Made by a program: the position numbers and the translations under genes. 64,000 nucleotides of DNA, from the NCBI GenBank assembly GCA_020444175.1, contig JAHLLM010000009.1:1-64000 (forward strand). The letters run 5' to 3'. Positions 1,809 to 30,347 of the stretch are shown piece after piece; positions within the stretch are counted from its first letter, which is position 1, and each line of letters opens with the position of its first letter. The DNA is from Desulfobulbaceae bacterium. Its GTDB lineage: Bacteria > Desulfobacterota > Desulfobulbia > Desulfobulbales > SURF-16. Under the pieces are notes generated by a model. That model was not told the origin of the DNA. It searched no databases and saw nothing but the letters and a program-made list of their open reading frames with translations.

Positions 1809-2381
1809 ATGTCGATATTAGATATTATCATACTCATTGTCATTGCCCTCTTTTTGGCACGCGGTCTCTGGGCAGGTTTTGTCAAACAAATTGCCGGGCT
1901 TGCTGCTCTTATTATAGGTTTTGTGGTGGCCGGGCGCTTTTATGGTCAATCTTCCAGTCTCGACATACCATTTATACAAAACCCTCAGGTCGGTTTTTTT
2001 GCGTCCTATATTCTTATTTTTCTTGTCACTTTTTTTTCAGTAATCTGCCTTGGCATGCTGCTTAAAAAAGTTGTCCAACTCTCTCTTCTCGGGTGGTTCG
2101 ACAGACTATTAGGCGGCATACTTGGACTTGCCAAAGGGTCTTTTGTCTCTTGTCTCCTTTTTATGGGACTCGCCCTTTTTATCTCCGCAGCAAATCCCTT
2201 TTTCAATAAATCTTTTTTCTATCCTTACCTGGAAAAAAGTTCGGCTTTTATTATATCGGTGGTTAAAGACGAAAATCTTCGCAAGGGTCTCCTTCCCCAG
2301 AAACCAGCGATTTCATCCTTTCTTCCCCAAACGGTAAAGCTTGGCAAGAAAATCGGGGTGAAAGCCGAGGAAAAACCCTAA
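1809..2381 (+). CDS. cvpA: CvpA family inner-membrane protein
   Basis: A 190-residue membrane protein of the CvpA (colicin V production) family. The N-terminus MSILDIIILIVIALFLARG begins the first of about four hydrophobic segments, followed by the typical GFVKQIAGLAALIIG block. CvpA proteins are linked to envelope homeostasis, but no biochemical role is established. An ATG at 1773 is also in frame, but family members begin directly with this hydrophobic helix, so 1809 is preferred. The last 69 nt overlap, tail to tail, the end of the glycosyltransferase gene on the other strand, and both C-termini look genuine. Confidence 0.85.
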   Translation: MSILDIIILIVIALFLARGLWAGFVKQIAGLAALIIGFVVAGRFYGQSSSLDIPFIQNPQVGFFASYILIFLVTFFSVICLGMLLKKVVQLSLLGWFDRLLGGILGLAKGSFVSCLLFMGLALFISAANPFFNKSFFYPYLEKSSAFIISVVKDENLRKGLLPQKPAISSFLPQTVKLGKKIGVKAEEKP

Positions 2382-3020
2382 AACGATCAGCTGATTCAAT
2401 GCACTTACCCGCAGGGTTCCATGTCGTTCCCATCTTCTGGCCGAACTAACGACCCAATGATCAAGGATCAGTATCTTCCCCCTTTTTTTCAATTCACGTA
2501 CAAGGCTGAAATCTTCCATAATCGATATTTCCGGAAAACCTCCGATTTCGTTAAAACGCGAGGCTTTCATGAAGAGGGCCTGGTCACCATAGGGCATTTG
2601 AAAAATTTTTGATCTGACATTTGCTCCCCAGGAAATGAATTTCATTTTTTTCAGTGGTGAATCAAAGCTGAGTTGAAAGGCCCCTGCTGCAATATTTTCC
2701 TCTGCCAGAGATTTCCTGACGAGTTCAGCAAAACCTTCAGGTAAAGTGGTATCGCCATGCAGGAAAAGATAGATTTCTCCCTTTGCCTCAGCGGCGCCTG
2801 CATTTAACTGCCTGGCCCGCCCACTGCGACAGAACAGAATTTTAACCCCATATTTTTCTGCTATCTGCGGTGTGCGATCAGTACTTCCCCCATCGACAAC
2901 AATGACCTCTACAAAATCCCCACTGCCTATGGAATCAAGTACCAACGAAAGATGTTGTTCTTCATTCAAAACAGGAATAATAACTGATACAACCTTTTTC
3001 TCCGATTCTGTTTTCATCAA
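2313..3020 (-). CDS. GT2 glycosyltransferase, TIGR04283 (arsenosugar) type
   Basis: A 235-residue GT-A fold glycosyltransferase. It shows the nucleotide-sugar core VEVIVVDGGSTDRT, the subfamily signature GRARQLNAGA, and HGDTTLP in place of the metal-binding DxD. Members of this subfamily are named for co-occurrence with arsenosugar biosynthesis genes but are also widespread elsewhere, so the acceptor is not proven. It overlaps the upstream TIGR04282-type gene by 4 nt (ATGA), so the pair is translationally coupled, as is common for these two families. No ArsM or ArsS gene is adjacent; an ArsM-like domain is present at 27-30 kb in this window. Confidence 0.85.
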   Translation of the reverse strand: MMKTESEKKVVSVIIPVLNEEQHLSLVLDSIGSGDFVEVIVVDGGSTDRTPQIAEKYGVKILFCRSGRARQLNAGAAEAKGEIYLFLHGDTTLPEGFAELVRKSLAEENIAAGAFQLSFDSPLKKMKFISWGANVRSKIFQMPYGDQALFMKASRFNEIGGFPEISIMEDFSLVRELKKRGKILILDHWVVSSARRWERHGTLRVSALNQLIVLGFFLGFHPDFLAKLYRLGKKG

Positions 3021-3715
3021 TTCATGAAAAATTCGGCAAATGGTTTGCCAAAATTTCTCAACTGCGGCAAATCATCTGCCTTATCGATATCTGTCAAAGT
3101 CGGAAGAGTTCCCCAGGTGAGACCTTCCCTCTCAGCCTGGACAATTGTCTGATCAAGTACGCGTTCAGTTCCCCATTCTATGTTTTCAAAAAGAAACGAA
3201 GCAGGCCTTTTCAGGCCGATTAAATAATATCCTCCATCAGAAGCAGGCCCCAAAACGAGATCTCTTTCCTGCAGCATGTCATAACCCTGATTTAATATTT
3301 CTGGTGTTATGTGCGGGCAATCTGCTCCTACAAGAAGTATCCTTTCAACGTTACAACGAAAAAAATTATCATGTAATGCATTCTTCATCCGTTCACCCAG
3401 GTCCTCTCCTCTTTGCTGGAAACATCCCATATTCCCGGGCACCCACCCTCTCACCTCATTTTGTTCGCCGCCTTCAAAATAGACGTCAATTTGAGAGGAA
3501 CGATTTTCATGTAATTTGAGACACTGCCCAAAAATATATTCAGCCATGGCACGCTGAAGCTCAGCCGCCTTTTTTGCCCCCAAGAAGGGAATCAGTCTTG
3601 TCTTCGTCTTTCCGATTTTGGGATACCTTGTGAAAATGATGAGTAACTCATTGCTTTTTTTTGACTGCACCACACTTACTTCAATATCTTTCTTGTCAGA
3701 ACTTCTCTTTATCAT
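3017..3715 (-). CDS. TIGR04282-type (DUF2064) glycosyltransferase-like protein
   Basis: A 232-residue protein with a GT-A/nucleotidyltransferase-like fold. Its markers are FTRYPKIGKTKTRLIPFLG at the start of the conserved domain, VGADCPHITPEIL, and LGPASDGGYYLIGL. Family members are annotated as arsenosugar-associated glycosyltransferases and nearly always travel with a TIGR04283 protein, as here. About 20 poorly conserved residues precede the domain, so a later start is possible, but no strong ribosome binding site decides it. It is transcribed away from the UPF0280 gene across an 80-nt divergent gap that must hold both promoters. Confidence 0.83.
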   Translation of the reverse strand: MIKRSSDKKDIEVSVVQSKKSNELLIIFTRYPKIGKTKTRLIPFLGAKKAAELQRAMAEYIFGQCLKLHENRSSQIDVYFEGGEQNEVRGWVPGNMGCFQQRGEDLGERMKNALHDNFFRCNVERILLVGADCPHITPEILNQGYDMLQERDLVLGPASDGGYYLIGLKRPASFLFENIEWGTERVLDQTIVQAEREGLTWGTLPTLTDIDKADDLPQLRNFGKPFAEFFMN

Positions 3716-27191: not shown

Positions 27192-30100
27192 TTATATGAC
27201 GAGAGCAAGAGGCTGTCCAGCAGCCACGTTCGTATCCCTGCTCTCCCAGAGAGGACAGGCCGCGCGGATGCATTCACGATTCAGATGATATTGCCTGCAG
27301 GCAACAGAATCCGCCGCCAAAAGAGATACTGGCAAAATTTCTTTTGACAGCTTCGCCGTCTCCTGCAAGGCGATCAATGTCTCCCGCTGGCAGCAGCGAC
27401 CGGCCTTCAAATCAGCAATTCTCTCCAGCACCTGAGCAGTGACCCCCTGGGCAAGCTGCCTGTTTTTTGGAGTAAGAGGGGTTGCTTCGAGAATAACGGA
27501 AAAAGCTATGCCAACCCCGACTGCGGCCCCACAACTTCCCCAGAAACCGCAAACGCCCCCTGGCACCCTGCTTCCCCGCTCAATGGCGGTAAGAATATCC
27601 TTTTTGCCGACTTTACCGCCCCTAGCCCGGTAGGTGGCAAGAATAATACCGGGCACCATGGCATGATGCTCCGGTCCATGCATGGCAATGGCTGGTTTTG
27701 ACCTTATTTTTTTCATCAAAGTCACCATGTCTTCTATGGCAGCTTCGGTGCAAAGTTTCTTTATCTGGGCAAGCCCCTTATCTTGGTGACAGGCGTCACA
27801 GACAAAATGACCGCTGTGGCAGGTGGCATTGGCGTTTTTTTCCTCCCCGCAATAATAGCAGTCCAAATTTCTTTCCTTTGTAAAATAGCGCAGCTCTCCG
27901 CCGCAAACCATGCAATCGGTCTTGCTCCTGGGTTCATCTTTTTTGGCTTTATTCTTCAGGGCAGCAGTAGTGTCCACGCCAAACTCCGACGGAGAAGAAG
28001 GACAGCACGATTGTCCCGCCGTATCCTGCTTTTCAGGGGGCAGCCCACAACAGTTGGAAGACTGGGAAATATTTGTCACTGCACCGGTGTCATCAATAAG
28101 GAAAACAGAATCATCCAGAGCATGAGCATCTGCCAGGGAAAGCCTCATTTTTTTGCCCTTTAAAAGAAGGATGCCGCTCTCTGTATAGACGGCGGCAAAC
28201 GGGCCGCGGTAAATCACCTCCACTGTTTGTACAGAAGCAGGCTTATAGGCCGCAAAGGTAAGCGAATAAAACGACGTTTCACCGATCTGGCGATATGGAA
28301 AACGCTTGACAAGTTTCATGCCGCTAAAACCGACAGCCCGAAGCATGGCAATGAGTTCTTCCTGCTGCATGGCCCCGCCAAGACACTCTCCCCGCAAGGT
28401 TTCATCGTTTTTGATATGAACTGGCACCGCTTCATCAGTCACGATATCCGACACCACCAGACGTCCTCCGGGTGCCAGGATGCGAAAGGCCTCATGGAGA
28501 GTGCGGCGCTTATCAGGACTCAGATTAATCACACAATTTGAAATCACCACATTGGCACAATCGTCAGCAAGGGGAATGGCTTCCAGAAAACCCTTCTTAA
28601 AGGAAACATTATCAAAGCCAAGTCTTTTCTTGACCTCGCCCTGGGAGGATGTGGCCAGGGCAAGCATCTCATCGGTCATGTCGATACCATAGACCTGACC
28701 CGTGGCGCCAACCATCTCAGCGGCCAGAAAACATTCAACCCCACTGCCGCTGCCCAGATCAACAAGAACCTCCCCCTCTTTAACCTTGGCGTCATGGACC
28801 GGACTACCGCAGCCATAGGATCTTTTCCGGGAAACGGCAGGAATAAAATCAGCCAAGGCCTGATCAGGGGCAAAGGGGTTGACAATATCCTCATTGGCCA
28901 GAGTGGCCGCCCTGCCGTAAAATTCTCGGACAGAACTATGGCCGTGGTCATCTGAAAGAGAGATGACACAGTTGCAATGGGTGAGGGCCACTTCCTGTCC
29001 GTCAGGGCAATCAAAACGCACATCACCCATTTTCAAAAGAAAGGATGCCCCTTCCCGCTCGGGATAGAGCCTGGCCTGCTGCGCAATGAGCCAGAGGGCC
29101 ATGTTGTTATAAAGTTCGACATAGGGATCATGGCCGACAAACTGGCCAAAGGCAATATAACTGTGATCAAGATCCCCACCGCCGACAAGAAATTTGAAGG
29201 CATTTTCTTCGCATTTACTGCCGGACAAAGTGGCCTCCCGCACCTCCCGCAATACCGGGCTGTTGCGCCACACATCCTCCAGGCCTTGATGAAGAGAACC
29301 GCAGAGCAGAGGTTCCACGCCGACAAGGGCCGGAGAGGGATAGACATTGCCGTCAGGCCCTATTGCAATAGATTCCCAGCCGCTGTTGCTCAGATCATAC
29401 CGGGTACCGGGAGTAGAAAAAACCTGGGACCTGATTGTTTCCAGGTTATCAATGGCGACCCCCTTTTCCGTGGCCAGGGCTAGAACGGGTTCCAGATGAG
29501 ACCAGATTTCTGCCGGGGAAACAAACTGCCCATCATTGCCTTTGCCCCGCACAAAGTGCCAGAGCAAATGGATATTTCTCACCTGCCGTGCAGCAGCAAA
29601 TTCGACGATTTGCGATAAATCTTCAATATTTTCACGATTAACGGCAACGGAGAGGGTTACCGAAAAGCCTTCCCTTTTTAATATGTCGAGATTGGTCACC
29701 AGCTTCTTGAAAGTTCCCTTGCCACGCAGAGCGTCATGACTGGATTCCATACCGTCAAGACTGATCTGAAGATGAAAACGGTCGGTTGGAAGTTTTTGAA
29801 GCAAATGCACCTTCTCTTCAATGAGCAACCCGTTTGTCAGCACCACCACATGGACAGCCGGATCGACCAGCAAGTCTGCCACAATATCCGCAAAATCAGG
29901 ATAAACGAATGGTTCGCCACCGGTAAAATAAAAGAGTGTGCAGCCAAGCCTTCCGGCCTCACTGATAGCGTTTTCAAGCTCGAGGCGGGTCAATGACCGG
30001 GACTTGCCCGGAGAGGCTGAGAAAAGGCAATGGCGGCAGGCAAGGTTACAGGCATCGGTAAGATGAAACCAGCACTCTTTGAGTTTTGCAAGGGTAAGAG

Positions 30101-30347
30101 AATTTTTTCTCCCCCCATATGCAATGCTTTTGCCTGTATTGATCAGAGAAAGAAGCTGAGCCCGCTCCAGAACATCATCACCCGTATCGTGACAAAGAGA
30201 TTTTCGGTCTTTCTGATCAATTGACTGCAGAAGCATTTCAGCTTTCCTGCTTGGCACGAACCAGTCCGGTTTCTGCGGATTGACATAAATTGGTTGTCCG
30301 TCATATTCGAATCGTTTCCAGTAATTTAATGATTGCATCGTTTTCAT
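27192..30347 (-). CDS. Radical SAM / ArsM-like methyltransferase / DUF5714-type fusion protein
   Basis: A 1051-residue cytoplasmic multidomain protein. Residues about 88-380 are a radical SAM barrel with Cys100, Cys104 and Cys107 (DACNLACRHC) and a partial SPASM-like region (Cys349, Cys379). Residues about 505-700 are a class I SAM methyltransferase (VDLGSGSGVECF, GIDMTDEM) carrying Cys513 (SYGCGS), Cys605 (SNCVINLSP) and Cys655 (RGECLGGA), which match the three conserved cysteines of arsenite methyltransferase ArsM; the last two are 50 residues apart, as in CmArsM. Residues 766-782 hold two CC pairs. Residues 812-1035 are Cys-rich and match DUF5714 (CxxC pairs at 812/815 and 830/833, HFVCDACH, GVCGFWGSCG). 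Arsenic methylation plus radical chemistry is inference; no ars operon is adjacent. Confidence 0.85.
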   Translation of the reverse strand: MKTMQSLNYWKRFEYDGQPIYVNPQKPDWFVPSRKAEMLLQSIDQKDRKSLCHDTGDDVLERAQLLSLINTGKSIAYGGRKNSLTLAKLKECWFHLTDACNLACRHCLFSASPGKSRSLTRLELENAISEAGRLGCTLFYFTGGEPFVYPDFADIVADLLVDPAVHVVVLTNGLLIEEKVHLLQKLPTDRFHLQISLDGMESSHDALRGKGTFKKLVTNLDILKREGFSVTLSVAVNRENIEDLSQIVEFAAARQVRNIHLLWHFVRGKGNDGQFVSPAEIWSHLEPVLALATEKGVAIDNLETIRSQVFSTPGTRYDLSNSGWESIAIGPDGNVYPSPALVGVEPLLCGSLHQGLEDVWRNSPVLREVREATLSGSKCEENAFKFLVGGGDLDHSYIAFGQFVGHDPYVELYNNMALWLIAQQARLYPEREGASFLLKMGDVRFDCPDGQEVALTHCNCVISLSDDHGHSSVREFYGRAATLANEDIVNPFAPDQALADFIPAVSRKRSYGCGSPVHDAKVKEGEVLVDLGSGSGVECFLAAEMVGATGQVYGIDMTDEMLALATSSQGEVKKRLGFDNVSFKKGFLEAIPLADDCANVVISNCVINLSPDKRRTLHEAFRILAPGGRLVVSDIVTDEAVPVHIKNDETLRGECLGGAMQQEELIAMLRAVGFSGMKLVKRFPYRQIGETSFYSLTFAAYKPASVQTVEVIYRGPFAAVYTESGILLLKGKKMRLSLADAHALDDSVFLIDDTGAVTNISQSSNCCGLPPEKQDTAGQSCCPSSPSEFGVDTTAALKNKAKKDEPRSKTDCMVCGGELRYFTKERNLDCYYCGEEKNANATCHSGHFVCDACHQDKGLAQIKKLCTEAAIEDMVTLMKKIRSKPAIAMHGPEHHAMVPGIILATYRARGGKVGKKDILTAIERGSRVPGGVCGFWGSCGAAVGVGIAFSVILEATPLTPKNRQLAQGVTAQVLERIADLKAGRCCQRETLIALQETAKLSKEILPVSLLAADSVACRQYHLNRECIRAACPLWESRDTNVAAGQPLALVI

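Follow-up and report, generated by a model that had tools for sequence, protein, structure and literature searches.

A radical SAM, ArsM and DUF5714 fusion protein, a likely substitute for separate ArsM and ArsS in anaerobic sulfur-cycle bacteria

Background

ArsS, a radical S-adenosylmethionine (SAM) enzyme, is the usual marker of bacterial arsenosugar synthesis. According to a passage of PMC8552651 that cites Xue 2019, ArsS and ArsM start this synthesis in Synechocystis, and a passage of PMC12159101 citing Cheng 2021 describes the radical SAM enzyme of this pathway as adenosylating arsenic. In this work we focused on a 64,000-nucleotide stretch from a Desulfobulbaceae bacterium (assembly GCA_020444175.1, contig JAHLLM010000009.1, positions 1 to 64,000), referred to below as the window. 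It encodes a tripartite protein, here also called the fusion, in which a radical SAM part, an ArsM-like methyltransferase and a DUF5714 domain are joined in one polypeptide. An earlier note on this DNA had proposed that this protein could methylate arsenic (or another thiophilic element) and also carry out a radical step, for example one like that of ArsS. The question is whether one polypeptide may do the work of ArsM and ArsS. Where the fusion occurs and which genes accompany it indicate that in many anaerobic sulfur-cycle bacteria it takes the place of separate ArsM and ArsS enzymes. We collected 80 relatives. The alignment comprised 72 relatives, namely 52 tripartite proteins and 20 two-part proteins that combine radical SAM and ArsM parts without DUF5714.

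Results and Discussion

Mutual exclusion with ArsS

ArsS was called by a score over the TIGR04167 cut-off (300 bits). Among 116 related genomes sampled at the order level, 66 have the fusion and 25 have ArsS, but none has both (Fisher p 8e-12). The 23 genera with the fusion and the 16 with ArsS have none in common (p 1.6e-6), these counts and p values ignoring kinship. This pattern is not explained by a single phylogenetic split, because in three families (f11, f12 and f14) some genera have the fusion and others have ArsS. Of 148 genomes sampled across the phylum, 11 have the fusion and 46 have ArsS, again with no genome having both. TIGR04169, a peroxidase linked to ArsS, was present in 24 of the 25 ArsS genomes and in none of the fusion genomes, which argues that ArsS and TIGR04169 were replaced together.

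Shared glycosyltransferases and flanking genes

The window contains two genes of families named 'arsenosugar biosynthesis glycosyltransferase' by NCBI:

2313..3020, minus strand: TIGR04283, 251 bits (cut-off 182)
3017..3715, minus strand: TIGR04282, 203.9 bits (cut-off 134)

TIGR04282/TIGR04283 accompany both systems in nearly all of their genomes. TIGR04282 was found in 63/66 fusion genomes, 25/25 ArsS genomes and 12/25 of the remaining genomes of the order-level sample, and the phylum sample gave 11/11, 43/46 and 10/91, respectively. It is also over its cut-off in 18 of the 20 genomes with two-part proteins, and in an archaeal two-part locus (L079) it follows the two-part gene.

In several distant families these genes adjoin the fusion. 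In locus L130, TIGR04283, TIGR04282, the fusion, a TVP38 (VTT) protein and a MerA-like flavin adenine dinucleotide (FAD) oxidoreductase form an operon on one strand. In two other loci (L125 and L128) the fusion is followed by a protein in which TIGR04282 and TIGR04283 are themselves fused, and in L126 a TVP38-FAD oxidoreductase fusion precedes the tripartite protein. The neighbours of the fusion recur at ArsS loci of the same order, with identities of 81% for the FAD oxidoreductase (L094), 71% for TVP38 (L102) and 73% for DUF547 (L096); a purine nucleoside phosphorylase gene is also present at the ArsS locus L094. TVP38, the FAD oxidoreductase and DUF547 lie upstream in a planctomycete two-part locus (L076) as well.

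Architecture of the tripartite protein

The open reading frame starts with ATG and lies on the minus strand, which the earlier note had not specified. Its features are the following:

27192..30347, minus strand: coding sequence of the tripartite protein, 1051 amino acids; full-length relatives are 40-72% identical
30108..30326, minus strand: RRE/PqqD-like N-terminal domain, residues about 8-80, with a structure match to CteB
29595..30062, minus strand: radical SAM core, residues 96-251 (PF04055, 1.6e-27), anSME/CteB fold, with a TGGEP motif at residues 142-146
30027..30050, minus strand: CX3CX2C cluster motif, Cys100/104/107 (CNLACRHC), invariant in 72/72 relatives
29229..29381, minus strand: decayed SPASM domain, residues 323-373, a weak SPASM match with the auxiliary-cluster Cys lost
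28968..28979, minus strand: H-x-N-C motif (His457-Cys460), Cys460 invariant in the tripartite and two-part groups
28044..28877, minus strand: ArsM module together with its C-terminal segment, residues 491-768
28809..28811, minus strand: Cys513 (YGCGS), equivalent by alignment to CmArsM Cys72 and hAS3MT Cys61 (PMC3877260)
28533..28535, minus strand: Cys605 (SNCVINLS), equivalent by alignment to CmArsM Cys174 and hAS3MT Cys156
28383..28385, minus strand: Cys655 (RGECLGG), equivalent by alignment to CmArsM Cys224 and hAS3MT Cys206
28047..28052, minus strand: CC pair 766-767 in the ArsM tail; in tripartite proteins C766 is conserved in 52/52 and C767 in 51/52
28002..28007, minus strand: CC pair 781-782, directly before DUF5714, where MbdU-like relatives have Cys-TGA (selenocysteine, Sec)
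27786..27914, minus strand: CxxC/CxxC/CxxxH/CxxC segment resembling a metal ribbon, residues 812-854, conserved among the tripartite proteins and almost as well in stand-alone DUF5714 proteins
27246..27764, minus strand: DUF5714 helical core, residues 862-1034 (PF18978, 1.1e-60)

The three-part make-up described in the earlier note, including its CNLACRHC motif, is borne out by the translation and by Pfam, with Radical_SAM at 96-251 (97.1 bits, cut-off 29.5), Methyltransf_31 at 523-669 (2e-31) and DUF5714 at 862-1034 (204.6 bits, gathering cut-off 26.2). No NCBIfam model spans the full length of the protein. The AlphaFold2 model has a predicted local distance difference test score (pLDDT) of 85.9 and a predicted template modelling score (pTM) of 0.70.

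The ArsM module and its arsenic-binding cysteines

Arsenite methyltransferase is the best family match of the methyltransferase part, below the curated cut-offs (220.7 vs 263 bits for PRK11873, and 118 vs 400); the ArsM beside ArsS in L096 is likewise under the PRK11873 cut-off (195.9 vs 263 bits). Residues about 491-705 of the model superimpose on CmArsM (PDB 4fr0; Z 26.6, root mean square deviation 2.2, 215 residues aligned), and phmmer against 5evj gave 4e-41 for the module. Cys513, Cys605 and Cys655, which the earlier note had equated with Cys72, Cys174 and Cys224 of CmArsM, are paired with them in the phmmer alignment, and the spacing of 50 between the last two is identical. None of the 72 aligned relatives lacks this triad. 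The three radical SAM Cys, Cys539 and Cys460 are equally invariant. For the six Cys of the cluster motif and the triad, invariance in 52 tripartite and 20 two-part proteins excludes chance.

The module thus resembles ArsM/AS3MT (CmArsM, CrArsM, hAS3MT) in fold, SAM motif, arsenic-binding Cys triad, C-terminal segment and Cys-rich tail. It differs in lying inside a larger protein, in staying below the NCBI ArsM cut-offs and in lacking the fourth ArsM Cys (hAS3MT Cys32, CmArsM Cys44), in place of which the 52 tripartite proteins have an invariant Asn490-Pro491. In the two-part proteins this position is Cys. In hAS3MT, the C32S and C61S mutants lose arsenite methylation and keep methylarsenite methylation, and both methylation steps need Cys156 and Cys206 (PMC3877260). 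Because the Cys32 equivalent is missing and the C32S mutant behaves in this manner, the fused module may prefer methylarsenite to arsenite, a point on which the earlier proposal has to be amended.

We also considered an ordinary ArsM of a detoxification operon and rejected it, because the fusion gene adjoins mutM and a distinct ArsM of the host lies in an ars operon (contig C78, 27000-36000) that comprises an ArsR-like protein, ACR3, a stand-alone ArsM with an N-terminal Cys and an ArsC-like phosphatase.

In another fusion genome (L155; G077:C7, 92500-96500), a stand-alone four-Cys ArsM adjoins DUF547 about 8 kb from the fusion, and is a candidate supplier of methylarsenite. The host of the window carries yet another ArsM-like methyltransferase gene (L153; contig C6, 54500-59500). 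Its reading frame contains two TGA codons, the first within an 'SSC-TGA-PP' motif at the N-terminus and the second close to the position at which ArsM has its last arsenic-binding Cys. Its middle arsenic-binding Cys is replaced (SNGVINLS), and it has the appearance of a double selenoprotein.

The radical SAM part

Residues 8-428 of the model resemble CteB (5wgg, Z 29.4) and anSME (Z 28.4), and PqqD is matched in Pfam by a two-part relative (L085, 1.4e-10). The alignment shows the auxiliary-cluster Cys of SPASM intact in the Nitrospirota two-part proteins; Scalindua retains some of them, and the tripartite group has lost them. The earlier proposal needs correction here, since this segment scores 57.3 bits, far below the 300-bit TIGR04167 cut-off, and so falls outside the ArsS family. 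The fusion resembles the ArsS system in that a radical SAM enzyme goes with arsenic methylation, in its TIGR04282/04283 partners and in the TVP38, FAD oxidoreductase and DUF547 genes that flank it, whereas the family, the SPASM/RRE architecture and the lack of a TIGR04169 partner set the fusion apart.

DUF5714 and the CC pairs

The earlier note had listed CC pairs followed by a Cys-rich tail like DUF5714. These features are present, but the CC pairs do not all belong to DUF5714. The ArsM model NF040538 is matched to its last position at residue 768, so that C766-C767 represents the Cys-rich tail of ArsM itself, and C781-C782 falls inside the match to MbdU, the 'metal-binding double selenoprotein' (NF045648). 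This match reaches 138 bits, well under the cut-off of 600, and MbdU, unlike the window protein, stands alone; both have a DUF5714-type region preceded by a Cys pair, or Cys-Sec in MbdU-like proteins. In four stand-alone MbdU-like relatives (L156-L159), Cys-TGA immediately precedes the domain (SGCU, KSCU and QSCU, the TGA being assumed to encode Sec). Their Cys-TGA stands at the place of C781-C782, which suggests that the latter is a reactive rather than merely structural pair.

Folded alone by AlphaFold2, DUF5714 reached a pLDDT of 94. Its core Cys (933, 939, 985, 986, 1017, 1026 and 1031) are invariant in stand-alone proteins too. Comparison with the PDB gave no match by sequence, a best Foldseek E of 0.9 and a best VIA Z of 4.6, which does not by itself prove a new fold.

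Two loci show stand-alone DUF5714 genes in other settings. One (L132, 6422-7033) lies amid genes that appear, judged from their translations, to be of the corrinoid methyltransferase/activase kind. In the other (L122, 6548-10660), the tripartite gene has an additional DUF5714 gene next to it, which stands alone and has the same orientation.

Proposed function

The fusion is most likely a non-homologous substitute for ArsM and ArsS. We consider it probable that it acts as a single-polypeptide organoarsenical synthase, doing the work of both at the head of an arsenosugar-type pathway. The tie to this pathway is drawn because of the exclusion of ArsS, the common TIGR04282/04283, the operons and the common flanking families. 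Together with the Cys triad and the ArsM fold, these findings also give good support to the earlier proposal of arsenic methylation and an ArsS-like radical step in one polypeptide, corrected in that the radical SAM domain is of the RRE/SPASM type.

The ArsM module would methylate a trivalent arsenical, and may convert methylarsenite to dimethylarsenite, the first methyl group having been added by the other ArsM, that of the ars operon. From the ArsM module the As(III) species would move on to the radical SAM site, for which the CC-rich linker may serve as the path. There, reductive cleavage of SAM would lead to a second C-As bond, which by analogy with ArsS probably carries a 5'-deoxyadenosyl group, and the TIGR04282/TIGR04283 enzymes could subsequently glycosylate the arsenoribose. 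DUF5714 most likely would hold or deliver the metalloid, or keep the metalloid and its own cysteines reduced.

Several observations weigh against this interpretation. In its build the radical SAM part resembles RRE/SPASM enzymes that modify peptides; it lies outside the ArsS family, and in the tripartite group it has lost the auxiliary-cluster Cys. Related genomes are not independent samples, and ArsS is also present in 2 of the 20 two-part genomes. The TIGR04282/04283 genes of the window lie 23 kb from the fusion gene, not in an operon with it, and of the 64 genomes with TIGR04282 in the phylum sample, 10 lack both ArsS and the fusion. Finally, 'arsenosugar' in the names of TIGR04282/04283 is an NCBI assignment, and we found no assay of these proteins.

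Alternative explanations

An RRE-like domain and a radical SAM part without family-level kinship to ArsS would also suit another radical chemistry in the same arsenic pathway. The radical SAM part might form a different C-As bond, for example by 3-amino-3-carboxypropyl transfer as in ArsL, which shows that the C-As bonds made by radical SAM enzymes are of more than one kind (PMC8552651), or act on a carrier-bound arsenical recognised by the RRE; the product would be an organoarsenical other than an adenosyl-derived arsenosugar. In the arsinothricin system, too, a radical SAM enzyme (ArsL) and ArsM act on one arsenic atom (PMC8552651), but as separate proteins with other partners, and the ArsL model is not among the 25 best family matches of the window protein. 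The neighbours of the two-part relatives differ in a manner that fits this alternative, with a B12 radical SAM gene at 8/8 Nitrospirota loci and a PHO4 permease at seven others. Nevertheless, the canonical CX3CX2C motif is kept, and the same intermediate as that of ArsS fits best, because the fusion never occurs with ArsS yet shares its glycosyltransferases and flanking genes; we therefore regard other radical chemistry as unlikely. A bolder proposal, which we also consider rather unlikely, is that strictly anaerobic bacteria and archaea make a new organoarsenical by means of an RRE-bearing, non-ArsS radical SAM enzyme, and that DUF5714 is a metalloid carrier of new fold that channels As(III) between the two active sites via the CC or Cys-Sec pairs.

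The structural matches of residues 8-428 to CteB and anSME, the presence of the mycofactocin maturase among the sequence matches and the weak likeness of TIGR04283 to MftF would agree with a maturase of ribosomally synthesized and post-translationally modified peptides (RiPPs), or a mycofactocin-like one. A precursor peptide would then be the target of the RRE and radical SAM/SPASM parts, the methyltransferase would methylate a thiol or selenol, and the MftF-like TIGR04283 enzyme would glycosylate the product. We consider this very unlikely. No conserved small open reading frame was found beside the gene in the neighbourhoods of 64 loci, although a precursor could still lie elsewhere in the genome. 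Those frames that recur resemble shadow frames of neighbouring genes within close relatives. In the L130 operon, moreover, the genes are separated by only about 40-70 bases, so that a precursor would hardly fit between them. In addition, the three arsenic-binding Cys are strictly conserved and TIGR04282/04283 accompany ArsS too. The window protein shares with SPASM/RRE maturases (CteB, anSME, PqqE, MftC) the overall fold of residues 8-428, but not the auxiliary-cluster Cys, and it is fused to ArsM. Least probable of all is a methyltransferase acting on another thiophilic element (Sb, Se, Te or Hg), the association with arsenosugar genes being misleading. The names of TIGR04282/04283 do rest on association, and ArsM-like and MbdU-like relatives are often selenoproteins; however, the Cys triad maps one-to-one onto arsenic-binding ArsM structures, and the ArsS system that shares the pathway acts on arsenic, according to the passage of PMC12159101.

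Significance

If the fusion does replace ArsM and ArsS, a search for ArsS would miss 66 of the 91 order-level genomes having either system (about seven in ten), including many sulfate-reducing and sulfur-disproportionating anaerobes, and maybe anammox, Nitrospirota and archaeal relatives. It would also represent a second, independent radical SAM route to C-As bonds. As a fusion that arose in nature, it may serve to channel a trivalent intermediate that is toxic. DUF5714, with its predicted fold lacking a PDB match, would obtain a first functional setting. We found no paper on an ArsM-radical SAM fusion and none naming DUF5714 in a search that lay mostly outside subscription journals.

Two-part relatives

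Tripartite proteins occur in Desulfobulbales-type metagenome-assembled genomes and in other families of Desulfobacterota, and in an unrooted tree they all lie on one side of a branch with 100/100 support. One homologue of the window protein (L041) belongs to Desulfurivibrio sp. AMeS2, whose record carries no label of a metagenome-assembled genome. The two-part proteins come from Scalindua/Anammoxibacter, other Planctomycetota, one metagenome-assembled genome of Acidobacteria, Nitrospirota and archaea. In the eight Nitrospirota loci (L081-L088), the B12-binding radical SAM gene is BchE/HpnJ-like and lies directly downstream. The PHO4-family (phosphate-type) permease is found near planctomycete (mostly Scalindua) and acidobacterial two-part genes (L069, L071-L075 and L078), where it is possibly linked to arsenate uptake. 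Several Scalindua two-part loci also contain DUF3179 and a CelA-like glycosyltransferase.

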